Shown: positions 1 through 46,432 of the stretch, piece after piece
How positions within the stretch are numbered: position 1 is the stretch's first letter
How the letters are laid out: every line of letters starts with the position of its first letter
NCBI GenBank assembly: GCA_030673895.1
Contig: JAUTCR010000031.1
Location: 1-64,000 of the forward strand
Reading direction: 5' to 3'
Source of the DNA: Verrucomicrobiota bacterium JB023
GTDB lineage: Bacteria; Verrucomicrobiota; Verrucomicrobiia; Verrucomicrobiales; Akkermansiaceae
Length of the DNA stretch: 64,000 nt
The notes under the pieces: generated by a model
What the model was told of the DNA's origin: nothing
The model's database searches: none
What the model saw: only the letters and a program-made list of their open reading frames with translations
Translations under genes and position numbers: made by a program

Positions 1-131
1 AGGTTTATAAGGATTCTTCAGGAAATATTGTGATAACAGCAACCCACTGGGATGTTGAACAGTCCCCTCCGTTGTATACATCTAAAAGAAGCGAACAAGG
101 CGGTCATGCCAAGACGGGCCCGCAGGGTTGA
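1..131 (+). CDS. C-terminal end of a small hypothetical protein (cut by window edge)
   Basis: An open frame enters from the left edge (codons in phase with base 3) and ends at TGA 129-131. About 42 residues are visible, containing ATHWDVEQSPPLYTSK and ending in EQGGHAKTGPQG. No family is recognised. The last residues are encoded by the left arm of the attC-like repeat at 91-197, as expected for a cassette gene whose stop lies inside its recombination site. The next gene also ends in EQGG, encoded by the same kind of sequence. The start and most of the protein lie outside the window. That this is a real gene is inferred from its position and the shared tail. Confidence 0.45.
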   Translation, partial: VYKDSSGNIVITATHWDVEQSPPLYTSKRSEQGGHAKTGPQG

Positions 132-197
132 TCACTTGCGCGAGCGAGGTGAAGGTTTTTAGCTTGTTCGCCGTCTGGCATACCTATAACGTTCAGC
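91..197 (+). repeat. attC-like recombination site (site A)
   Basis: The two ends are imperfect inverted repeats. The left arm (91-117) starts GCGAAC and contains GGTCATGCCAAGACGG. The right arm (171-197) contains CCGTCTGGCATACC and ends GTTCAGC. Folded together, the outer GAAC/GTTC boxes pair, an unpaired spacer follows, and the inner boxes pair except for two extra bases (C and A) on the left arm. Outer box, unpaired spacer, inner box with extrahelical bases and a long variable loop is the architecture of integron attC sites. The upstream frame stops inside it and a new gene starts 16 bases after it. No integrase is visible. Confidence 0.5.
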
Positions 198-212
198 AAA
201 AAAAGACATCTG

Positions 213-641
213 ATGAAGAAAGCCCTCGCTGTGATCTTGATGCTTCAGGCGAGCATCGCCCAAGGCTATGAGATTGATCTCACGGTCGACCAACTCCTTG
301 CTGAGTCTAATGTCGTCGTGGTTGGCAAATTATCTAAGGTGAAGGACTGGATTGAAGGAGACTTCGCCCGAGGTGAGGGCTTTATCGAGGTCTCGGAAAC
401 CCTGCTCGGTGCAATTCCAAGGAAGAAAAGGCTTAATCTACGCTGGGCGAATAGGCTATACCGAAGCGGAGCTGTTGAGTTTGAGGACACCGGCGACGAG
501 GAGTTTGTTTGGTTTCTTTGGCGCGTTAAGGACGGCTCTTTCCGTGCCCGGTATTCGAGTTGCAAGGCACCCTTGGATGAGAAGACGCAGATACTGGCCG
601 CAATCAAGAAACGACAAGCCGAACAAGGCGGCGCACGCTAA
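213..641 (+). CDS. Secreted hypothetical protein, cassette-like
   Basis: This 142-residue protein has an N-terminal signal peptide (MKKALAVILMLQASIAQGYE), so it is probably exported. The mature part is charged, with a predicted beta-rich middle and a motif FVWFLWRVKDGSFRARYSSC near residue 100. I recognise no family. Its ATG lies 16 bases after site A. Its stop codon overlaps the next inverted-repeat element, and its last residues are again AEQGGAR, from a GAACAAGGCGG sequence like that in site A. No promoter is evident. All genes in this stretch read in the same direction, as in a gene-cassette array. Confidence 0.7.
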   Translation: MKKALAVILMLQASIAQGYEIDLTVDQLLAESNVVVVGKLSKVKDWIEGDFARGEGFIEVSETLLGAIPRKKRLNLRWANRLYRSGAVEFEDTGDEEFVWFLWRVKDGSFRARYSSCKAPLDEKTQILAAIKKRQAEQGGAR

Positions 642-754
642 CTGCTAACCCGCCCCGAGACGAAATTTCCAGATGATTAGAATCTCAACCCAGTGTCGAA
701 GTGTCGCTGCCGGTCAGCGGTAGGTGGCCTTGGGCGTTGCACCTAGCGTTGCGT
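635..754 (+). repeat. attC-like recombination site (site B, weaker)
   Basis: The left arm begins ACGCTAAC (635-642) and continues TGCTAACCCGCCC. The right arm (729-754) reads GGGCGTTGCA and ends GTTGCGT. The outer boxes pair with one extra T. The inner boxes pair as TGC-AAC-GCCC with extra bases on the left arm only, the same asymmetry as site A. A second copy of GAACAAGGCGG lies just left of it at 621-631. Several pairings are possible here, so the exact site is uncertain. Confidence 0.33.
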
Positions 755-845
755 GCAAGGTGCACCGGGCGTGCGGAGCTTTGCTTCAGTAGCGTCCTTC
801 ACCTGCACTCCGCTACAGCGAAAAACGCTACAGGAGGCGTTTTTA

Positions 846-886
846 CCCTTTAATCTTAGCTAAAAATTTTTGCTAAGATAGAAGGG
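846..886. other. Long near-perfect palindrome
   Basis: CCCTT-x-ATCTTAGC (846-860) faces GCTAAGAT-x-AAGGG (872-886). The bases between them (TAAAAATTTTT) are themselves self-complementary. The result is a long hairpin with an A/T centre lying just upstream of the ExbD-like gene. It is not followed by a T tract, so an intrinsic terminator is not clear. It may be a transcription stop for the preceding cassette, or a folded part of a recombination site. Confidence 0.4.
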
Positions 887-917
887 CGAGGTGCTTAGCG
901 TGTTCGTTCTTCCCAAT

Positions 918-1364
918 ATGATTGCCCGGATAGCCGCTCTGGTTTTTTCGCTTCTGGTTGTCGAGATGCGGGCCGACGAGCGGTTTGACCCATCGGAGCC
1001 TCTAACTGAGCCACCGCTGACAGGAACGCTGGATGACAGGCCAACTCTTGATATTTCGATAAATAATGATGATGAGGCCACGATAAATGGTATCACGTTC
1101 ACTGAAGCTCAGCTCACGGTGATCTTCCGATGGATCCGTGTTCATGAACCGAAGATCGTTCTCCGCTTCCCAATGGCTCGTGATCGTTTCGTCCAATACA
1201 GAAAGATCATCCGGATCGCCTCGAAGGAAGGAATCACCGATGTGATCTTCTCACCGCTACCGGAAACAAAAGCGGGTGAACGAGTCGGCACTGGACAACC
1301 CGCTTCCCGTTCGGAGTCGGATTTGGATGGTTTTGACAACACGGAAGGCAAATCGCAGGGGTAG
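918..1364 (+). CDS. Secreted protein with ExbD/TolR-like periplasmic domain
   Basis: The ATG at 918 gives 148 residues starting with a hydrophobic segment (MIARIAALVFSLLVVEMRA), either a signal peptide or a membrane anchor. A GTG at 891 would add nine residues. Residues about 40-108 (LDISINNDDEATINGITF ... IVLRFPMARDRFVQYRKII ... GITDVIFSP) have the pattern of the ExbD/TolR periplasmic domain: short beta strand, an 'ING' step, helix, a strand with 'R.p....y', helix and a final 'gi..v.f'. ExbB/TolQ and TonB partners are absent nearby, so an energy-transduction role is only inferred. The C-terminal tail (QPASRSESDLDGF...EG) is encoded by a repeat shared with the gene at 2326-2913. Confidence 0.6.
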   Translation: MIARIAALVFSLLVVEMRADERFDPSEPLTEPPLTGTLDDRPTLDISINNDDEATINGITFTEAQLTVIFRWIRVHEPKIVLRFPMARDRFVQYRKIIRIASKEGITDVIFSPLPETKAGERVGTGQPASRSESDLDGFDNTEGKSQG

Positions 1365-1381
1365 TGTCGGTAGCGGGTGGC
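1294..1381 (+). repeat. Inverted-repeat element, attC-like class 2 (site C)
   Basis: The left arm CAACCCGCTTCCCG lies inside the 3' end of the preceding gene and pairs with CGGTAGCGGGTGGC (1368-1381). The TAG stop at 1362-1364 lies within the element. The DNA is clearly related to the element at 2833-2925: both have GACAACCCGCT or GACCAACCCGCT, then CGGAGTCGGA. Two unrelated genes thus end in the same repeat. Confidence 0.42.
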
Positions 1382-1886
1382 ACTACCTCGATATTCTGCT
1401 CCTACAATTTTCATGTCGGAAGTGGTGTTGAAGCCCTTTCCTGTTGCGCTGAAAACATATCTCTTTTCCCTTTGAACATAAAACCAGAAAAGCCGCAGAA
1501 TTGGTGTTTTTCTCCTTCGATCAGTGTTCCTGAATGCTGAGTCTAGCAAAGCCACAAGCGTGGAAGACCTGCCGAGAATCCTTTCTTTCCGATTCCGCTG
1601 ATAACTACGCCCTACCTTCCCAGAACGGCTACGGACTCAAGCTCTCATTTTAGCTGACCCTACCTCATGCCTCTGGCTCGTTGAACCCCTGAACGAAGCC
1701 GGATTCCCGCTCGCTCAAGTAATCCGGAGACGTGCCCTGAGACCGCTCGAAGGTGAAAACCTGAACAATTCACTTCAGAAGGCAGGCAGCCTTCTGTACC
1801 TTTGTCGGCTACATCCAAAGATCACGCTTCCTCCTCGCTCGCGTCGCTGCTTTGCTCTACCATTATGCGAACGAAACGAACCATCT
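1382..1886. other. About 500 bp without a supported gene
   Basis: No frame with a plausible start and length is present. A small hairpin, GAAGGCAG/GCAGCCTTC, lies near 1778. The stretch could be an ORF-less cassette or a decayed gene. Nothing recognisable is seen. Confidence 0.4.
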
Positions 1887-2258
1887 ATGAGGCTTAGAGA
1901 AATCGTGTTCTGTTATCCATCCAGAAGCTTCCGAGGAAGCAGAACGGATTTTGAGGATCTTGTTGAGCGGTTTGAAATCAAAGCAAATCCCTTCGAGCGC
2001 GACTGGAGAAGAAAAGACAAGTCGTCCGACAGGATAGAATTCAAGAAAGGAAGAGGTGTGTCTCTGACGTTCGACTATTCAAATTCTAATCTAGAAGTTC
2101 AGGTCATTTTTGAATTCGACGAACAGAAAAATGAAATCGTAATCTCTGCAGGAAATTGGGGCTTCCCATTCGAGCCACTACTCTCAAAAAAACGGTATCT
2201 AAAACTTTTGGATAGTATCGAATTTTTCCTGGCTCACTCTGAAGCAAAGACGGCATAA
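1887..2258 (+). CDS. Small hypothetical protein, cassette-like
   Basis: This 123-residue soluble protein has no signal peptide. It is rich in Lys, Arg, Glu and Phe, with a beta-rich middle (VSLTFDYSNSNLEVQVIFEF) and a C-terminal amphipathic helix (RYLKLLDSIEFFLAHSE). I recognise no family. It resembles small single-domain proteins of the immunity or antitoxin size class, but nothing in the sequence proves such a role. The coding region is conspicuously A/T-rich compared with the genes after 4.2 kb, consistent with acquisition. Its stop sits at the edge of another possible attC-like element. Confidence 0.6.
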   Translation: MRLREIVFCYPSRSFRGSRTDFEDLVERFEIKANPFERDWRRKDKSSDRIEFKKGRGVSLTFDYSNSNLEVQVIFEFDEQKNEIVISAGNWGFPFEPLLSKKRYLKLLDSIEFFLAHSEAKTA

Positions 2259-2320
2259 CCAAGCGGTGATAGCAATTGCCGGGCTGCGTACGGCGGCCGA
2301 TGGGCTTCGAAGTTCGCCTA
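2252..2320 (+). repeat. Possible short attC-like site (site E)
   Basis: GGCATAAC at the stop codon of the preceding gene resembles an attC left outer box. GTTCGCC at 2312-2318, just before the next gene, is its complement with one change. The inner boxes pair poorly by eye. It is listed because the gene-end and gene-start geometry matches site A. Confidence 0.25.
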
Positions 2321-2325
2321 AAGAA

Positions 2326-2913
2326 ATGAAACCAATCGCGCTATTCATTGCACTACTTATCATTGCGCTGAGTGCAGGCCTACAGGCGCATCAAGATAAG
2401 CCGCTGAAGCTCGAAAAGGGGAAGCTCACTGGGCTTCCAGGGAAATACCAGCCAGCAGCATTCGATCCAAAGAAAAAGACTCTGACAATCGCCGGCAAGT
2501 CGCTCGCATTTCCGGAGATTCTTCATCCACTGTTCACTGACGACCATGTCGACGAACTATTCGGAGAATTAGTGCCGGTGAAGGGCCATCACTATCAGTT
2601 GAAGTTTTCTGCATCTTGGTATCACGAAAAATTAGCACCGGAGCTTCCACCCTACATCATGATTAGGATTGAGCCACAAGGTCGCGATTATTCCTTCGAA
2701 TTCGTGATCGACATGGACCGATTGATATTTATTAGAGCCGATGCTAAGATAGCCCTGGTTGGCACAGTCCCGATCGATTTGGATGGTGTAGTCGATTCCG
2801 TCAAACAAATCAAAAGCGAGCAAGTTGGTGCTGACCAACCCGCTACCGCTACGGAGTCGGAGTTAGAGGGTGTCAAAGGACTTAAATCAGAATCGGAGGG
2901 ATGCTGCCAGTAG
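2326..2913 (+). CDS. Secreted hypothetical protein, cassette-like
   Basis: The ATG at 2326 gives 195 residues with a good signal peptide (MKPIALFIALLIIALSAGLQA). The open frame extends 20 codons upstream, but that part is not signal-like. The mature protein (about 175 residues) contains LTIAGKSLAFPEIL and DYSFEFVIDMDRLIFIRADA, and no known domain is evident. Its last ~30 residues (GADQPATATESELEGVKG...SEG) match the tail of the ExbD-like protein at 918-1364. They are encoded by a shared repeat, so they are probably not part of the functional fold. Confidence 0.6.
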   Translation: MKPIALFIALLIIALSAGLQAHQDKPLKLEKGKLTGLPGKYQPAAFDPKKKTLTIAGKSLAFPEILHPLFTDDHVDELFGELVPVKGHHYQLKFSASWYHEKLAPELPPYIMIRIEPQGRDYSFEFVIDMDRLIFIRADAKIALVGTVPIDLDGVVDSVKQIKSEQVGADQPATATESELEGVKGLKSESEGCCQ

Positions 2914-2925
2914 CGGATGGCGGGT
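2833..2925 (+). repeat. Inverted-repeat element, attC-like class 2 (site D)
   Basis: The left arm GACCAACCCGCTACCGCTAC lies inside the end of the gene. The right arm (2906-2925) is GCCAGTAGCGGATGGCGGGT. The arms pair over about 16 bases with single-base bulges. The gene's stop (2911-2913) falls in the right arm. It shares sequence with site C at 1294-1381. Confidence 0.42.
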
Positions 2926-2954
2926 CTGAAAGGTTAAGGATTAAAATTAAAATT

Positions 2955-3272
2955 ATGATTACGATCTTACCAACAAGCAGCAGAACTGATCGAGAATGGA
3001 ATTTCCGTGACGATAATCATCAGAATTTCTTCGGAGATCTTCCGAAGGATTCGTCGGTAGTAACGCTCACTTTAAATTGGAAAGAAAATAAAGAAGCCCG
3101 ACCAAGACTGGTAGGTAAATATCAAATTAATATGGGTGAATTGCTTGAGGAAGGCTTTGCAAGAGAAGTAGAGAGAGGTATTCGCCTTCGATTTCAAAGA
3201 AACGGCGAATTGATTGAGATCGCGAAGAGCTCTTCTTCAAACGCCCTCGTTGTAGGCCGCCGCCCAGACTGA
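2955..3272 (+). CDS. Small hypothetical protein, cassette-like
   Basis: The ATG at 2955 gives 105 residues. The open frame reaches back to 2901, but that would overlap the preceding gene and its repeat. The protein is soluble, with no signal peptide. Alternating strands are suggested by VVTLTLNWKENKEARPRLVG and ERGIRLRFQRNGELIEIA. No family is recognised. It is A/T-rich, on the same strand as its neighbours and without a visible promoter. Its position 30 bases after site D fits a one-gene cassette. Confidence 0.5.
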   Translation: MITILPTSSRTDREWNFRDDNHQNFFGDLPKDSSVVTLTLNWKENKEARPRLVGKYQINMGELLEEGFAREVERGIRLRFQRNGELIEIAKSSSSNALVVGRRPD

Positions 3273-3275
3273 AAA

Positions 3276-3330
3276 CCCTAACCAAACGGAGCAGGCAGCT
3301 CCGGGGCGACGTCCCTCGACCGCCTGTAAT
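3276..3330 (+). repeat. Possible short attC-like site (site F)
   Basis: CCCTAACC after the stop of the preceding gene looks like a left outer box. GAGCAGGCAG (3289-3298) can pair with CCGCCTGTAA (3320-3329). GGAGC-AGGCA-GCTCC is an alternative local hairpin. There is no clear matching right outer box. Confidence 0.22.
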
Positions 3331-3356
3331 CGATGTATTCCTAAAAAATTTAAGCG

Positions 3357-3863
3357 ATGATGCTAGCCTTCATCACAAGCATTAGTTGGGCCCTCGCGGA
3401 GGCTCCTCAAGCAAATGCACCTGCTGCTATTCAGACCAAGAAGGACAGCAGGCGGGGAGATTCTTACACTTTGTGGAGGAGCGACTTGAAGGCATTCGGT
3501 TGGACAAAGGTCGATAGATATTATTCTTACTGTGGCGTTTCCATATTGGTAGATGGAAAATTTGAGAACGTTCCTTTCCCTTCCTATTGACAAATGACGG
3601 GATTTCCTGAACCTGATGCCGATAGCCTTCAACCTCGTGGGAGAGATGGCATCCTAGGATGGGACAAAGAAGGTCGTCTGCTTTATCGGATATGGAGAAC
3701 ACCTTTACCGTCATTTTCTGGCCACGATCCTCTCAATCACCTAGTCTACCTTGAGGTGACTGCATCGAAGATGAATGTTATTTGAGTTGAGAATGAGGAA
3801 GGCGAGTGGCGCTCAGGTGACTGGATACCAGAAAAAACAGAGCAAACCACCGAGGGCAACTGA
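3357..3863 (+). pseudogene. Hypothetical secreted protein gene interrupted by in-frame UGA codons
   Basis: One reading frame looks protein-coding from the ATG at 3357 but is broken by TGA at 3588-3590, 3783-3785 and 3861-3863. Segments on both sides look natural (KAFGWTKVDRYYSYCGVSIL before the first stop; GWDKEGRLLYRIWRTPLPSF after it; EGEWRSGDWIPEKTE after the second). The frame then stays open to TAG 4065-4067, though coding character there is less convincing. A weak signal peptide is possible at the start. Three nonsense codons suggest a decayed cassette gene. No Cys or redox context supports selenocysteine here. No family is recognised. Confidence 0.4.
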
Positions 3864-4265
3864 CAAGTAGTATTTGGAAGACTGTTCCCAGAGTTCGGGG
3901 ATGTTTCTCTTATCGGTTTTAATGGTTTCCAGAGGGGGGCTGATTTTCCGAGTGCTTTCGGGAGCGTTGTTCGTCGTGTGGATCGCGGCGTTGTCTGCGC
4001 CGGAGGAGAGTCTGTCGCCTCTACCGGCAAGGCTTCGACGAAAGGGTTGATCTCGGTTGGGTTCTAGTCGCTTGTTCGCGCCTGGGGCTGCTGAGGCTGG
4101 CAGGTGGTGGAGGCTCCTTGGCCCTCGGTTTTTCCTTGGGGGGCTCTGGGGAAAGGCAAGAAAGGGGGGGGAAGTGGCTCAGCCTCATTTTGATGCCGAA
4201 AACATTGAGCAATCGGGATGACAAAGGACTCTAATTAGGTTTAGATAAGGAACGTTCAAATCATC
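3864..4265. other. About 400 bp without a supported gene
   Basis: This joins the cassette-like region to the GC-rich backbone. It contains a strongly purine-biased G-rich stretch near 4140-4180. No start, ribosome site or RNA structure stands out. Confidence 0.4.
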
Positions 4266-5108
4266 ATGAATCCGCAACCATTCCGCACCTCCGCCGACCA
4301 GTTTATCGAGATTCCCGTCACCGCGCAGGGTGGGGAAGAGAAGGCTCCTGACATCAAGGATGGAGCATCCGCCGCCGTTGAGACAAAGACAGCGGCGGGC
4401 AAAGCGGGCTGGTTTTCCAAGGTGTTTGGCCGGCGGAAGAAGGATCTCCTTCTCGCGGAGTTGACCGAGCTGAAGTCAAATTACTCGGACTTGCTTGCGG
4501 AGACGAAGGAGATTCGCGAGCGCTTGGAGGTGGATGGCGAAGAGCGCCACGCGGCGATGGCCGAGGCTGTCGCCCCTTTCCCGGATGCGATCAAGGACAT
4601 CAAGGCGGTGCGCGCCAGCCAAAAGGAGGCTGCCGACATTTTGCTGAAAATCCGTGATCAAGTGCAGTCCACGGCAGAGCGGGATGGGAAGGTCCTCGAT
4701 GCCATGGAGACCTTGAATGGTGGATTGGGCCGGGTGGATAGCTCGGTGGCTACGGTGAACGAGAGTGTCGGATCGCTCTCGCTTCAGGTAGGCCAAGCGA
4801 AGGAGTCGACCCTGGAAGGTGTCGAGCGGATCGATAAGCGGGTGAAGAATCTTTCCGAGGATTCCCGGGAGCGGAGTGAGCGAATCGTGCAGGGTAGCAA
4901 TGAGATGAAGTCCACGCTCAATCGCATGGAGCGCAATGGTCAGCGGGCTCTCTGGGTCTGCGCGATTCTCTTGGCTGCTGTTCTGGTCATGCTGATGGTG
5001 CTGGCGGTGCAAGCGGGCAAGACTGCGGCGGAGTCCACCGCCTTGCCCGAGCAAAGCTCTCCCAACCTTGTCGTCGCGGATGATCAGGCCCGCGTGCTCA
5101 CCGACTGA
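4266..5108 (+). CDS. Coiled-coil membrane protein, C-terminally anchored
   Basis: The protein has 280 residues. Residues 1-55 are low-complexity. GWFSKVFGRRKKDLLLAELTELK leads into a long predicted coiled coil (about 60-220) with heptad-like spacing and methyl-acceptor-like repeats (VDSSVATVNESVGSLSLQVGQ). A single transmembrane helix at about 228-250 (RALWVCAILLAAVLVMLMVL) is followed by a ~30-residue tail. It is probably anchored in the inner membrane with a cytoplasmic coiled coil. It resembles chemoreceptor or RmuC-like helical domains only in composition, and no enzyme domain is seen. It converges on the mrp gene with a 25-base gap. Function unknown. Confidence 0.7.
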   Translation: MNPQPFRTSADQFIEIPVTAQGGEEKAPDIKDGASAAVETKTAAGKAGWFSKVFGRRKKDLLLAELTELKSNYSDLLAETKEIRERLEVDGEERHAAMAEAVAPFPDAIKDIKAVRASQKEAADILLKIRDQVQSTAERDGKVLDAMETLNGGLGRVDSSVATVNESVGSLSLQVGQAKESTLEGVERIDKRVKNLSEDSRERSERIVQGSNEMKSTLNRMERNGQRALWVCAILLAAVLVMLMVLAVQAGKTAAESTALPEQSSPNLVVADDQARVLTD

Positions 5109-11788: not shown

Positions 11789-14700
11789 TTACTCTCCGCT
11801 CCCACCTCCGCCACATTCGATCTTATCAACCTGAAAGTCAATTTTCCCGCAGGCTTCGATGGTGGATTTCACTTGCACCCCATAGCCAACGGGAGGGGAG
11901 ATTTTTCCACCAATCAATTTTCCAATTTTGGATCCAGAAGACTCATAGAGCGCACAAGGCTCAACCGGCAGGAGAGGCAGAACGCATTCGTTGAGAGGTA
12001 AGTTGGCCATGGGAGCCTTCTCAATGAAGCCTTCAACCACCCCGGCATAGATGGTGCCGACGCAGTTGCCATAGTTACAAAGTGCCTTGGTGTAGAAGAG
12101 GATCAACTTGACGAGATTCCCGTAACCAATGGCGGGACTCTCCCCGGTGGGGTCGGTCAACATCAGAGGCAAATTGCGCACGTAGGTGTAAAGGTTGAAG
12201 TCGCCCCCTTGATAGCCCAGCGGATCCGCTGTGAGGAAGCGGCCTTGGGCGGGATCGTAGAAGCGACGCCGATTCTCATAGAGTCCGACGGCAGGGACGG
12301 CGAAGCGACTGGCGAAGCCCAGACTCTCCTCATCCGGCGTGCCCAAGGTGCGTCCGAAGGCATCATAATCCTGCCAGGAGAGAAGATTCATGTCTTCATC
12401 AACCCGTCCGCGAATCGACCCAATGTGATCCTTGAGGAACCAGGACTCTCCGGTGTCCTTTCGCCAAGCTGCATGGAAATCATCCACGCGGTCGAGCGAG
12501 TAAAAGAACGCGGCAGAGAGCTCACTCTCACCGTCCTGGAATTCACCCAATGGCATCAAGCGATCATTGATGATCCAGGTTTTGAGACCGTTAACTTCGC
12601 GGCTGATTAGCCGGTCGCGGAAGTCGTAATCGTAGCGAATAGTAGTGCTGGGTGCCGAGGCGGCATCCGCTTTGACGAGAATTTCGACAAGGCGATTACG
12701 ATGGTCGTAGTTGAATTCCGTGACTTGCCCGGTAGCGAAGCTTGTCCGACTCGCGACATTGCAATCGTCGTCATAGAAGTAGAAAAAGAGGCCGTCGGAG
12801 AGCATGAGGTTGCCCGTATCGATGGTGTGGGTGGAGGGAGTGAAGTGAGATGCCGTCCGGTTCCCCAAGAGGTCGTAGCTATACGATTCGTCGGGGAGGG
12901 AGGAGTCGCTATTCTCGACGGAGCTGAGCCGGTCTGCTGCGTCGTAGCTGACCGTGGAAGTATTGGCCGAATTCTCAATTGAAGCGATCCGGTTGGAAGT
13001 ATCGAATCCGTAGCTGAAAGCAGCCCGGGGATCGAGGAGCCCTCCTTCCGGCGTTTCGTGGCAAATCGATTCGGTATTACTGTTTTCATCGTAGGTGAAG
13101 CGCGTGACGAAGTCCTCGAGGTTGCCCGAGTTGGTGCCATTGGTCAGGGCGATGATGTTGTTGACCGAGCCATTCGGATTGTAGCTGAAGTCGAGACGGG
13201 CGCTGCCTGCTGGTGAGTTCGACCAGGTCTGGCGGTAGGTGCGCTCGCCTTGATACTCGGAGCGGATGTAATTCAGTCTGGCAGCTCCGAGGTTCAAGCT
13301 CACTCCTGCGGGAGAGCTATGCCGGTTGCCATTGTCCACCCAGTCGTAGAGCACGCGGAATTCAGTTTGTCCCGCATAGGTGACGTGCTCCCTTGTTGGT
13401 TGTTCGTATGAGCCAAAGAACTCGATGAGATTGGTGTCGCCATCCGCCGTATCACTCACAGAGGAGATGTAACCGTTGTTGTGGTAGGTGTAGGAGAGGG
13501 TGCGGATGATCGCATCGTCCGAATCGTGCCAATTCTCGGTGAGGAGTCGACCCATGGCGTCATAGGTGAAGCTGGTTTTCTTGCCAGAAGCCAGGGTCGT
13601 TGTGGCGAGTAAGCCGACTTCATCGTAGGTGTTGGTGACTGTGCCTCCGTTGGCATTGGTCGTCGTTAGGAGGCGCTCCTCGAAGTCGTAGGTGTAGTTT
13701 GTGGTATTGCCCAAAGCGTCAGTGAGGGAAGAGAGGTTGCCACTCTCGTCAAAGACCGGGGTGACGGTCCCTCCACTGCGAGTTTCCGATTCGGTGGGAT
13801 TCCCATTGGCGTCGAGGACGACGCAGCTCTTGCTCCCGGAGGGGCTGGTGGTGAGATATTCTGAGTAGGTGACCTCGGTTGTCGTGGTGACGTTCCCCTT
13901 GAAGTCTTCCTGGCGGATTGGTACCCCCGCATTGTTGAACTCGAACTCGCTGGTGTTCCCGTTCTCATCAGTGGCGGAAGTGAGTCGTCCGCGACGGTCG
14001 GTGGTGATGCGGGTGTCGTAGCCAAAGGTATCACTGACTCCGGCAGGCAATCCATCCTCGGAGTAGTCGTAGTAGGTGGAGTAAAAATCGTTGAAGATGA
14101 CTTCCTTGATGAGACCCTCCGGGGTGTTGCGGTAGCTTTCCGCGCTGGCGAAGGCGGGCTCCTGGCGCGTCAAATTTCCGTTTTCATCATACTCGAAGGA
14201 GCCAACCGCTCCGTTGATATCGCGGGCTTCGGTGATATTGCCAAACTCGTCATAGGAACGGGTGATGCGCGTGCCGCTCGGATTGTTCGGTGGATCGATG
14301 CGGGTGGGGAGGCCCATGTCATTGTAGCTAAGTTCCCAAGTGTTCCCCTTGGCGTCCGTGATGCTGGTCTCCAGGTCCGGGTTGCTCGGGTCGTCATAGC
14401 TGTAGGTAGTCGTATTACCGGCGGGGTCGGTTTCCTCGAGGATGTTGCCCCGTTCATCGTAGCGTAGATTGGTGGTGAAGCCACGGGGCGAGGTCACACT
14501 GCCGGTGAAGCTGGAAGGATCCCAGTCCACCTCGGTACGATGGCCATAGGAGTCGATTTGCGCAACGAGGCGACCATCGTCGGGATCATACTCATAGCGG
14601 ACTGGCATACGGCCGAGCGGATCGGTGATGCCGGAGAGGAAGTGCTCAGGATCGGTGAGATACTGGTAAGTGGTTGTGTAACCATCCGGATCGGTGCTGC

Positions 14701-17700
14701 TCGCCAGATTACCATCGGCATCGTAGGTGTAGAGCCAAGTGTCTCCATCGGGTCCACTCATTCCAATGATGCGGCCCAGAGCGTCGCGCTCAAAGCTCAA
14801 TCCTAGGCCGGCGGAATGGACGATGCCTTCGCTGCTAAAGGTCAGCGTATTGCCATTGGGGTCCTCTGCCTTGAGGAATCCCTTGTCCTCATGGTAGCTG
14901 AAGCGATTGCCCTCCGGCGAGACCAGGGTGTATTTGTTCGGATTATAAGGGAAGTTGATGAAGAAAATGTAAGCCGTTCCGTCGGCCTTCTTGCTGATGG
15001 CGTATTGGCCGGTCTCTGGTACCTCGAGCTCGTAGTAGTTGCCCGCATCGGGCTCAAAGACGGGCTGATAGGCCACCCCAATGCCGGGAACGGCGCGGGG
15101 GTTCTCCAACTTGAAGGTGAAGCCGAGTCGCTGGCCATCGGGAGAGGTCAGATACACCCGCGAACCATCTTGGAAGGGGGTGGCCCCGAAGGGTCCGGAC
15201 GCTGCAGTATCCGGCACGGTCTCCCGGATATCCGGGTCCTGGAGGTCGAGTGACCATCCATATCCCAGCTCGCCATCCTCGTCTGCTTGCAAGGAGTCAT
15301 AGACACGGGTGAAGGTGATGGGAAAGCCAGCCAAGTCGATGGCGACATCGGTGAACTCGACCCGATTCCGGCCCAGCTTGGCATCGCCGACGGCAGAGAG
15401 CGCGAGAGGTTCTGCCCAGCCGAGACCGAGCTCGTTCTTGGCTACCACGCGGAGGATGTAGTCATTGCTCTTGAGGAGCGTGGCATCAAAGGTGGCGATT
15501 AGGTCCGTGGACTCGATGGGCTCAGTGCCTTCCGCGATACGGGTCCATGGGATGGAGGGGGAGCCAAGGTCATTCCGGTCCACCTCATCAGCGTGAGCAT
15601 ATTCCACAAACCATTCCCGCAGCGGGCGGGTTGACGTGATGGTGCCGGTGAGATCGGCTGTTAGAAAGACTTCGTCTCCGTTGGAAGGAGTCTCAATGGT
15701 GATCTGTGGCCGAAGCTCGGTTACTGGCACATTCTTGGCAAACACTTGGGCCGAGTAGGCGATTTGCCCCGACTCCGAAACGGCCTTGATGCGGGCCAGG
15801 TAGATGCCATCGGCTAATGAGGATGCCGGGAGCATGGCGGCTGGCTCCGAGAAGACGCTCCCAGAGCCAGAAGCGATCTCGATGTAGTTGGACTCGTTCG
15901 TATTGAGCGCGTAGGGGTCGACCAGGTCGATAGGAGCGTAGGCAATCTCCCAAGAGGCTATCTCCGAGCTTCCTTTAATCAGCGCAACCAGCTCGGTATC
16001 CTCGGCGAGAACCGTCCCAGCTGCCGGGGCGAGAATGCGTGCGGTCACCGCACCGGGGGTGGCATTGGTTTCCGTCCCGATGGCATTGGGAACGAAAGGA
16101 TCCGAGCCATCCGCATTTGTGATATAGACTTGCAGGCTGCGCTCGGTCACCTGACCGGCGGTATCGGTGGCGCTCGCCTCGATGAGCAGGAGACCGGGAT
16201 GATCGAGCGGGACGCTTGCCGAGTTGTTTTCGTTGAGAAGCAGCTCTTCGCCATTGGCCATCACCACTGTTTCTACGATGCCCAAATCATCTTCCATGAA
16301 GATGCTGATGATGGCGTCTTCTCCGGCCCTCAGTTCAGGGGTTGTGGGATTGGAGTCCTCATAGCCAATGTTTAGGAAGGGAGGGAGATCCTCGAAGTAG
16401 CGGCCGAAGTCCAGGTCTTCTACAAGCTCGTCGCCGGTGATCGTGACCATGTGGGCGGCGCTATCGGGACGGGCGTAATTGTGGACTTCGACACCAGTCA
16501 GCTCGAAGCCGAACCAAGTGCCTCCGGAGTCGAGGGCGGTGAGCTTGAGGTAATGGATGGGGCCGGGAATGTCATTCTCGGCAAGGTCGAGAAGGAAGAC
16601 ACCCCCGGTCTCCGAGATCCTCTCGACAAATTGCAAAGTATCCAGCGTCTTTCCAATTTCTATATTGGCCAGCTCGCCAGCGGCAGCGACGTAGGAGTGG
16701 AGCGTGAGATCCGGGCCGGGGCCATCGATGATCGGCTCATCAAAGCGGAGAATGATATGACCGTCTTGGGGAATCGTGAGAACCTCTGCCCCATTGGTGG
16801 GCGCGTTGCCAATGCGGGTGTTACGGACGCCGATGGGTTGGAGTACGATGTTGGGGTCGACTGGCTCCGGCAGGCTGCGCGCATTCCGGCCTCCCCAGAT
16901 CGCGGGGTTTTCCGTGGCCATCTTGCCATATGGGACGGGGAGGTTGCCAGTGAAGCCGGGCACATCGGGATTGTCGTGCACGTACTCCACCACTTCATCC
17001 GGGAGTCCGTCCACTACGGGAGGTGCCGTAGGTCGGGGTACTGTCTGGGTCTGGGGAGCGGGCAGGATTTGTCGCACATGATGGAGACCGACAGGAACGA
17101 GAGTGAACTCGTAGTCACCATTCTCATCGGTCACCGCGGTTCGTTCTCCTTGGTCTAACGAGCCATTATAATTTCCATCAAGGTAAACAGTGGTTCCCAC
17201 CAAGGGTGTTCCGTCGGTAAGGTCCGCGTCATTGTTCGGGTCATTCAGGACCGTCCCTCGCAGCGTGCCGCCGGAGACATCCGGGGAAAGGGGATCGGTA
17301 CGGTAGAGGAAGACCTCGTCGCTATCGATGATGGAATCGAAGTCGCTATCGGAGAGCAGGGGATTGGTGCCCAGCAACGCCTCTTCGACGCTCGAAAGAC
17401 CGTCATTGTCGGCATCAAGAGGGGGGAGGGCGTCTAGGCAATAGAAGCTGGACTGGAGATCCGGACCGATGTCGATTTGAAAGAGGGAGCCATCGCCCTC
17501 GACGGGATCGATGAGGGGGGCAAAGGACTGCATGTCCTCGGAGCCGAGGACCTGATAGAGGGAGCCTGTCATCGATTGCCATTCCAAGGTGATGTCCGGT
17601 GGGGTCGTGCGGATATCGAGAGATAGGAATGAACTTTGGTCGAACGGATCAGTTCCCGAGTAGTATTCCTCCTCGGTAGTGAAGCCGTCGCTATCGTGGT

Positions 17701-17827
17701 CGATGGCGAGTTCCCAGGATTCGAGCCCGTAGTATTCCAGCCAATAGTTCGGCGTGGGGGAGGTCTGTGCAAAACTGGGAAGGCTGGCGAGGGATGAGAA
17801 AAGAAGAACCAGTGCGTTGTTTTTCAT
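11789..17827 (-). CDS. Giant secreted RHS-repeat protein
   Basis: The protein has 2012 residues and a signal peptide (MKNNALVLLFSSLASLPSFA). An EF-hand-like calcium segment (AIDHDSDGFTTEEEYYSGTD) is followed by a second one near 150, an SdrD-B/Cna-B-like beta domain (about 190-255, GTVLNDPNNDADLTDGTP), several Ig-like or adhesin-like domains, then RHS/YD repeats (about 890-1750) and the RHS-associated core (DHIGSIRGRVDEDMNLLSW ... YDPAQGRFLTADPLGYQGGD ... DPTGES, about 1770-1895). A ~118-residue variable tail with several Cys follows. RHS proteins form shells around a C-terminal toxin or adhesive domain. I recognise no toxin motif and no immunity gene follows. The PEP-CTERM gene 26 bases upstream is probably co-transcribed. 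Confidence 0.9.
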   Translation of the reverse strand: MKNNALVLLFSSLASLPSFAQTSPTPNYWLEYYGLESWELAIDHDSDGFTTEEEYYSGTDPFDQSSFLSLDIRTTPPDITLEWQSMTGSLYQVLGSEDMQSFAPLIDPVEGDGSLFQIDIGPDLQSSFYCLDALPPLDADNDGLSSVEEALLGTNPLLSDSDFDSIIDSDEVFLYRTDPLSPDVSGGTLRGTVLNDPNNDADLTDGTPLVGTTVYLDGNYNGSLDQGERTAVTDENGDYEFTLVPVGLHHVRQILPAPQTQTVPRPTAPPVVDGLPDEVVEYVHDNPDVPGFTGNLPVPYGKMATENPAIWGGRNARSLPEPVDPNIVLQPIGVRNTRIGNAPTNGAEVLTIPQDGHIILRFDEPIIDGPGPDLTLHSYVAAAGELANIEIGKTLDTLQFVERISETGGVFLLDLAENDIPGPIHYLKLTALDSGGTWFGFELTGVEVHNYARPDSAAHMVTITGDELVEDLDFGRYFEDLPPFLNIGYEDSNPTTPELRAGEDAIISIFMEDDLGIVETVVMANGEELLLNENNSASVPLDHPGLLLIEASATDTAGQVTERSLQVYITNADGSDPFVPNAIGTETNATPGAVTARILAPAAGTVLAEDTELVALIKGSSEIASWEIAYAPIDLVDPYALNTNESNYIEIASGSGSVFSEPAAMLPASSLADGIYLARIKAVSESGQIAYSAQVFAKNVPVTELRPQITIETPSNGDEVFLTADLTGTITSTRPLREWFVEYAHADEVDRNDLGSPSIPWTRIAEGTEPIESTDLIATFDATLLKSNDYILRVVAKNELGLGWAEPLALSAVGDAKLGRNRVEFTDVAIDLAGFPITFTRVYDSLQADEDGELGYGWSLDLQDPDIRETVPDTAASGPFGATPFQDGSRVYLTSPDGQRLGFTFKLENPRAVPGIGVAYQPVFEPDAGNYYELEVPETGQYAISKKADGTAYIFFINFPYNPNKYTLVSPEGNRFSYHEDKGFLKAEDPNGNTLTFSSEGIVHSAGLGLSFERDALGRIIGMSGPDGDTWLYTYDADGNLASSTDPDGYTTTYQYLTDPEHFLSGITDPLGRMPVRYEYDPDDGRLVAQIDSYGHRTEVDWDPSSFTGSVTSPRGFTTNLRYDERGNILEETDPAGNTTTYSYDDPSNPDLETSITDAKGNTWELSYNDMGLPTRIDPPNNPSGTRITRSYDEFGNITEARDINGAVGSFEYDENGNLTRQEPAFASAESYRNTPEGLIKEVIFNDFYSTYYDYSEDGLPAGVSDTFGYDTRITTDRRGRLTSATDENGNTSEFEFNNAGVPIRQEDFKGNVTTTTEVTYSEYLTTSPSGSKSCVVLDANGNPTESETRSGGTVTPVFDESGNLSSLTDALGNTTNYTYDFEERLLTTTNANGGTVTNTYDEVGLLATTTLASGKKTSFTYDAMGRLLTENWHDSDDAIIRTLSYTYHNNGYISSVSDTADGDTNLIEFFGSYEQPTREHVTYAGQTEFRVLYDWVDNGNRHSSPAGVSLNLGAARLNYIRSEYQGERTYRQTWSNSPAGSARLDFSYNPNGSVNNIIALTNGTNSGNLEDFVTRFTYDENSNTESICHETPEGGLLDPRAAFSYGFDTSNRIASIENSANTSTVSYDAADRLSSVENSDSSLPDESYSYDLLGNRTASHFTPSTHTIDTGNLMLSDGLFFYFYDDDCNVASRTSFATGQVTEFNYDHRNRLVEILVKADAASAPSTTIRYDYDFRDRLISREVNGLKTWIINDRLMPLGEFQDGESELSAAFFYSLDRVDDFHAAWRKDTGESWFLKDHIGSIRGRVDEDMNLLSWQDYDAFGRTLGTPDEESLGFASRFAVPAVGLYENRRRFYDPAQGRFLTADPLGYQGGDFNLYTYVRNLPLMLTDPTGESPAIGYGNLVKLILFYTKALCNYGNCVGTIYAGVVEGFIEKAPMANLPLNECVLPLLPVEPCALYESSGSKIGKLIGGKISPPVGYGVQVKSTIEACGKIDFQVDKIECGGGGSGE

Positions 17828-46189: not shown

Positions 46190-46432
46190 ATGTCCGAACC
46201 TAAGACCATCGAACGCCGCATCGCCTTCCGTAAGGCGAACCGCAGCATGCCCCGTAAGCGTCTCGACCTTCCAATGGAGAAGGTGAGCTACCTCAATCCT
46301 GAGACTCTGACCAAATTCACCAGCGAGACAGGGAAAATTCTTCCTCGTCGAGTGACAGGCGTATCGGCGAAAATGCATCGCCGTATCACCCGCGAAATCA
46401 AGCGGGCCCGTGCCGTCAATCTCTTGCCTTGA
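46190..46432 (+). CDS. rpsR: 30S ribosomal protein S18
   Basis: The protein has 80 residues. The conserved core is VSYLNPETLTKFTSETGKILPRRVTGVSAKMHRRITREIKRARAVNLLP, of which GKILPRRVTG and RRITREIKRAR are the classic S18 signature. S18 binds S6 on the small-subunit platform. rpsR is usually beside rpsF and rplI; here it is with rpmG, an arrangement seen in several lineages. It is followed by a hairpin that ends just before folE2. Confidence 0.95.
   Translation: MSEPKTIERRIAFRKANRSMPRKRLDLPMEKVSYLNPETLTKFTSETGKILPRRVTGVSAKMHRRITREIKRARAVNLLP

Follow-up and report, generated by a model that had tools for sequence, protein, structure and literature searches.

An integron recombination site at the edge of the window

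The window, a 64-kb stretch of DNA from Verrucomicrobiota bacterium JB023, begins with a hairpin-forming site that has the outline of an integron attC. This raises the question of whether the site belongs to a gene-capture system and, if so, which integrase would serve it. The first-pass annotation had placed an attC-like site at 91–197; the coordinates are exact, and the boxes, spacers, one-arm bulges and loop are as it described them. The parts of the site are:

87–200 (core 91–197), plus strand: attC of cassette 2, identified by the covariance model R1 (below), fold and sequence
91–96: R'' box, GCGAAC, pairing with the R' box at 191–197, GTTCAGC
97–101 (5 nt) and 185–190 (6 nt): unpaired spacers
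102–117 with 171–184: L''/L' stem, 14 pairs
C105 and A112: extrahelical bases, on the left arm only, six bases apart
118–170: variable loop

R''/R' and L''/L' pairing, an unpaired spacer and two one-sided extrahelical bases, all of them attC traits, are thus present, and the crossover is predicted to fall between G191 and T192. On the bottom strand the two extrahelical bases read T-N6-G. According to the available text of PMC3053210, IntI binds the bottom strand of attC with both extrahelical bases on the same side, and a spacing of six nucleotides between them gave the best excision by the integrases tested there.

Fold energy set the site only mildly above shuffled sequence (top strand, z −1.38, with 22 of 200 shuffles equally good; bottom strand, z −1.42, with 18 of 200), so one fold alone is no proof of attC. 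A stringent pattern for the arms (AAC, a spacer of 5 nt, 3 bp, a single bulge, 5 bp, a spacer of 6 nt and GTT) matched the 64 kb twice on the plus strand, once at 91–197, and nowhere on the minus strand; 30 shuffles gave a mean of 0.3 matches (range 0–2). This excess favours attC, although it is suggestive only.

Comparison across copies, rather than any single fold, settles the identity of the site. Positions 1–1500 of the window had similar copies in the same genome on contigs C12 and C49 and, 600 bases apart, twice on C4. We trained the covariance model R1 on 14 aligned attC sites of this genome, none of them in the window, with the outer R''/R' pairs imposed by hand from the attC rule. R1 scored positions 87–200 at 67.0 bits (E = 2.9e-15), well above background, and the site thereby passed the covariance-model check that had been proposed for it; since it is 81–85% identical to four of the training copies, the score reflects partly sequence and not structure alone. 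In the 14-site alignment 89.6% of cells were paired, compared with 31–40% when it was slid, and 33 cells had changed on both sides of a pair, a number reached by none of 500 shuffles. The two outermost R''/R' pairs were unpaired in 7 and 6 of the 14 sites, and RNAalifold alone recovered only the inner stem (8 pairs). An alignment of 65 matches, itself fitted to the structure, had 84.3% of cells paired, compared with 31–38% when slid. AAC was in place in 57 of these 65 genome matches, with the extrahelical pattern T-N6-C in 45, T-N6-G in 5, C-N6-C in 5 and T-N6-T in 2; the window site (T-N6-G) enters the set twice, once as a cut copy on L017 (10202–10256).

Genome-wide, R1 gave at least 57 matches at E ≤ 1 and at least 49 at E ≤ 0.001, on 15 contigs, both counts being lower bounds from the 150 candidates scored among 1697 found at first look. 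Among 16 other loci from an IntI search of named genomes it gave 4 matches in 3 loci; R1 is therefore lineage-specific, and counts elsewhere are lower bounds.

Multi-copy, palindromic sequences that are intergenic or lie across stop codons could also be a dispersed repeat of the REP, MITE or terminator kind that merely resembles attC. Such a repeat does not fit the single-base bulges at a fixed six-nucleotide spacing on one arm, the conserved AAC/GTT boxes, or the head-to-tail arrays that start at attI with an ORF between sites, beside IntI and with a matching attI core, and we regard it as extremely improbable. Rfam returned no family at the site at gathering or relaxed thresholds, which also speaks against a repeat. 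As attC, to our knowledge, apparently has no Rfam family, this blank is no argument against attC.

The array and the integrase beyond the window

The attC site is followed by a second intact one and by a run of small genes:

1–141: identical to the last 141 bases of contig C63 (46115–46255), on which lie intI, attI, cassette 1 and the greater part of cassette 2
3–131, plus strand: C-terminal part of the cassette-2 ORF (173 aa on C63), with its stop at 129–131 inside the attC
192–736, plus strand: cassette 3, bounded according to the attC rule by predicted crossovers between G191 and T192 and between G736 and T737
213–641, plus strand: cassette-3 ORF, 142 aa, with a signal-peptide-like N-terminus
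615–745, plus strand: second intact attC (R1, 64.5 bits, E = 1.2e-14)
891–1364, plus strand: ORF, 157 aa, with a hydrophobic N-terminus, reading into the decayed attC downstream
1292–1382, plus strand: decayed attC, inner part only, R''/R' unmatched (R1, 17.9 bits, E = 0.0066)
1887–2258, plus strand: ORF, 123 aa, within the decayed stretch of the array
2266–2913, plus strand: ORF, 215 aa, its last ~30 residues encoded by the attC behind it
2812–2944, plus strand: decayed attC with altered R''/R' boxes (R1, 42.2 bits, E = 5.1e-9)
2901–3272, plus strand: ORF, 123 aa, in the array's distal decayed portion
L017 7562–8971 (contig C63, just left of the window), minus strand: intI, 469 aa

Both sites past 745 have damaged R boxes, and the distal part of the array in the window is decayed; two further R1 matches near E = 0.5 were regarded as noise. 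Two other features of the window were observed. The sequence GGAACGTTCA at 4245–4270, just 5' of a 280-aa gene, may be what is left of an R' box and would then mark the right end of the array, and positions 11789–17827 on the minus strand hold a 2012-aa ORF with RHS/YD-like repeats, the translation being judged by eye.

The integrase lies on the overlapping contig. C63 ends at 46255, and its final 141 bases are the first 141 of the window, the sole end-to-start overlap among 20 array-contig ends compared. Its length suggests an assembler k-mer. The link between C63 and C31, the contig of the window, rests on this one 141-base overlap in a draft assembly, and that the assembler left the two unjoined probably means that another path exists at that node. 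C1 and C47 (L126, L130) have identical outward-facing ends of 141 bases, where two paths meet through a repeated cassette or strain variants. Read across the overlap, the order is recR (minus strand, assigned by reading the translation), intI (minus strand), attI, cassette 1 (166 aa), attC (L017 9617–9750), cassette 2 (173 aa), attC 91–197, cassette 3 (142 aa), attC 615–745 and then the decayed sites. The protein encoded at C63:43573–44505 scored 327 bits against the integron integrase model TIGR02249 (curated cut-off 265), which none of 14 control genomes matched over cut-off, and also matched Pfam PF00589 and PF13495. A scan with consensus patterns for Pc, the promoter that in integrons drives the first cassettes, returned no plus-strand sigma-70-like site between intI and cassette 1.

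The overlap changes how the window's edge is read. The site had been taken for the left edge of an array lacking a visible integrase; that edge is the window's alone, for it is preceded by attI, by cassette 1 and the attC that belongs to it, and by the greater part of cassette 2. The missing integrase is likewise an edge effect, since the window and its contig start inside cassette 2, and a full-length intI starts ~1.1 kb past the left edge, on the contig that overlaps by 141 bases. The gene described as truncated does end inside the attC (129–131), but only the window or contig edge truncates it, and on C63 it is an open frame of 173 aa. The new gene reported 16 bases after the site begins there, with ATG at 213. 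As a whole, the proposal of an attC site in a cassette array is strongly supported by the covariance model, covariation, IntI and attI.

attI platforms

The genome has three attI copies, each beside intI or its remnants (C63, C4 and C18). Those on C4 (L020 6307–6593) and C18 (L127 457–738) adjoin attC arrays and retain only 5' remnants of intI. The three copies align from the intI start through the intergenic stretch to TTTAAGAG-TTTT-CTCTTAAA followed by TTG/TTC, and are unrelated from there on. This divergence right after G/TTC maps the insertion point, as insertion at attI predicts. The TTTAAGAG-TTTT-CTCTTAAA element is a perfect inverted repeat just before the attI crossover (L017 9071–9090, L020 6561–6580 and L127 709–728).

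Two of the three platforms being without most of intI, orphan arrays do arise in this genome through intI decay. This, and the absence of intI inside the window, would agree with a CALIN, an orphan attC cluster without its own integrase that relies on an IntI encoded at another place in the genome. The overlapping contig argues otherwise: a full-length intI, an attI and two cassettes sit immediately to the left, and make a CALIN very unlikely at this locus.

The integron definition used in the available text of PMC9668308 asks for two or more attC sites separated by less than 4 kb, and the sites at 87–200 and 615–745 of the window and at L017 9617–9750 are spaced within that distance. IntI, attI and at least two attC sites within 4 kb make up a complete sedentary chromosomal integron, which is a known kind of system. 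We are thus confident that a Verrucomicrobiota species, placed by the genome collection in one genus with Roseibacillus persicicus, carries a complete sedentary chromosomal integron here, and that 91–197 is the second attC of its array counted from attI.

By analogy with established integron biology, IntI would bind the folded bottom strand of the site and cut at G/TTC, here between G191 and T192. Cassettes would be excised here, or circular cassettes inserted at attI. New cassettes would enter at attI and older ones degrade towards the distal end, in keeping with the damaged sites past 745. The array may then act as a reshufflable reserve of small proteins, most of them uncharacterised and many exported.

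Cassettes and their proteins

Sixty-one of the 65 R1 matches were laid out for cassette spacing; the four left out beforehand were L135 2186–2272 and window 1292–1382 (partial), L134 2004–2136 (single and weak) and L017 10202–10256 (the cut copy). Spacing was mostly 470–870 bp, and each of the 61 sites had an ORF of 40 aa or more on its own strand, the longest such ORF being implausible or ending far off for some. Among 55 cassette proteins, Pfam matched 8 families with one member each (protein kinase, DUF5076, SUKH-1 and others). PADLOC matched one member each for the 25 families listed of 32, mostly kinase-type entries, on which we base no defence claim. A strongly hydrophobic start was present in 24 of the 55 ORFs, or in 27 with alternative starts, by a crude test applied genome-wide.

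The first-pass annotation had characterized the genes after the site as small, same-strand and A/T-richer, of unknown function and mostly secreted. Composition bears out the first description (GC 0.496 at window 1–4200 compared with 0.575 elsewhere in the window), and none of the five array ORFs had a Pfam match at E ≤ 0.1. Secretion holds for a majority only in part: the crude hydrophobicity test was positive for 3 of the 5 with alternative starts, but for 2 of the 5 at the annotated start.

Relatives of the cassette-3 protein were found in 2 of 259 other family genomes (51% and 33% identity). In one of the two genomes an attC (45.5 bits) follows immediately; in the other, none was found within the stretch examined. 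Several cassette ORFs extend into their own attC, where all of them stop at position 102 of the site, which gives them a shared C-terminal tail of ~30 residues:

window 2812–2913, L018 1596–1697, L020 8731–8832 and L021 3164–3265 (minus strand): ORFs reading into attC

An integrase with an additional N-terminal domain

Pfam matches over cut-off cover only residues 160–450 of the 469-aa IntI. In 16 of the 29 distinct IntI ORFs listed (30 with one gene entered twice, as L107 and L144), the usual core-binding domain begins at residue 113 or later. Among the 150 phylum-sample IntI matches listed, 121 fall within open frames of 400 codons or more, a stop-to-stop length that is an upper bound on protein length. 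Similar extensions occur in IntIs of other Verrucomicrobiota as well as in those of Geomonas and Sedimenticola.

When 15 of the extensions were combined into a profile, 68 columns of it aligned to the core-binding domain (91% probability; E = 1.1e-6 for a single comparison). AlphaFold2 predicted the extension of R. persicicus IntI as four helices, with a mean pLDDT of 92.1 alone and of 78–96 per block in the whole protein. VIA-align placed this extension on core-binding domains (4a8e, Z 10.4; 2a3v, Z 10.0, 2.8 Å over 80 residues, chain 2–85), the Z of 10.0 staying under the ~13 below which caution is advised for helical bundles, which score high easily; XerA and Cre were the next matches. Foldseek gave no match at E ≤ 0.001 for the extra domain alone, and its entries at probability ≥0.92 were tyrosine recombinases. 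From these models and alignments, the extension may be read as a second, degenerate core-binding domain. The best structural match to the whole R. persicicus IntI was VchIntIA (PDB 2a3v; 36% identity, E = 4.4e-22), which shares the core-binding and catalytic domains; unlike R. persicicus IntI, its chain of 313–320 residues lacks the additional N-terminal four-helix domain.

Long and short IntI forms are interspersed on a 27-row tree, where the window's form falls in an all-long verrucomicrobial clade (support 100/100). A single origin of the long form was considered and found unsupported, as that tree needs 4 changes, at least 2 of them forced by well-supported branches. A literature search that covered few subscription papers or preprints returned no report of an extra N-terminal IntI domain.

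Relatives and distribution

The genome collection groups the window's genome in the same genus as R. persicicus, which NCBI taxonomy assigns to Verrucomicrobiota, Verrucomicrobiaceae. R. persicicus KCTC 12988 carries integrons (L022/L143, with a second intI on L144) whose IntI is 63–64% identical to that of this genome. There, AATAACTTGTTC lies between intI and the first cassette, which is followed by an attC that R1 detects at 48.4 bits; this attI core, AATAACTTGTTC, is common to both genomes. R. persicicus differs in the cassette next to attI and in having no TTTAAGAG/CTCTTAAA repeat at attI, and no recR was found by its intI in the stretch examined. A comparison of gene order between relatives, also proposed in the first-pass annotation, was uninformative: the mrp neighbourhoods of three congeners had no attC within the stretches examined and no other neighbour shared with the window, so that no empty site could be defined.

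In the family, an IntI match at E ≤ 1e-40 was found in 93 of 260 genomes (over cut-off in 84) and an attC match to R1 at E ≤ 0.001 in 144 of 260, the present genome included. No genome in the range G001–G076 of these 260 was positive for IntI or attC, and all genomes listed from that range belong to a single genus, g2, apparently Akkermansia. Most family genomes outside the range are attC-positive. The range serves as a natural negative control, and suggests one genus without integrons, by lack or loss. In a phylum-wide sample, IntI matches were found in 117 of 387 genomes and 85 of 197 genera, over cut-off in 107 of the 387 genomes.

The Vibrio cholerae superintegron is the textbook sedentary chromosomal integron. 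Like such integrons as described in the available parts of PMC8618304, the present system has intI divergent from the array beside attI, cassettes numbering in the tens, attC sites that resemble one another within the genome in both sequence and structure, and mostly uncharacterised cassette genes. It differs in its Verrucomicrobiota host, its sites on 15 contigs, its attI copies (at least three, two with truncated intI) and its 469-aa IntI with an extra N-terminal domain. The same text lists Verrucomicrobiota among integron-bearing phyla and gives complete integrons in 20% of gammaproteobacterial genomes; our family and phylum figures count IntI only, in another sample. Such sites had been thought rarely described in this kind of bacterium, a view at odds with that listing and with attCs in 144 of 260 family genomes. 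The accessible part of PMC8352920 presents 11 taxon models of attC, none for Verrucomicrobiota, and the literature search, within its limited coverage, returned no study centred on verrucomicrobial integrons. Gene-capture arrays in this lineage thus seem little studied yet common.

Implications

What began as an isolated hairpin becomes a complete gene-capture system in a lineage with little-studied integrons, and a cultured, named relative exists in R. persicicus KCTC 12988. Systems of this kind are known; in the present lineage they seem unusually common, and the one here carries a variant integrase. A bolder proposal, which we hold only tentatively and think less probable than its opposite, is that this is a variant machine: an IntI with tandem core-binding domains, the first a degenerate SAM-like four-helix domain, widespread in Verrucomicrobiota, that may alter the grip on attC and attI or the control of synapsis, in a phylum that, one integron-free genus aside, would be among the most integron-rich. 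As a natural variant, the extra domain could help to show how folded single-stranded DNA is recognised by IntI, and, if the family counts hold, Verrucomicrobiota would be a large and little-used reservoir of gene cassettes.
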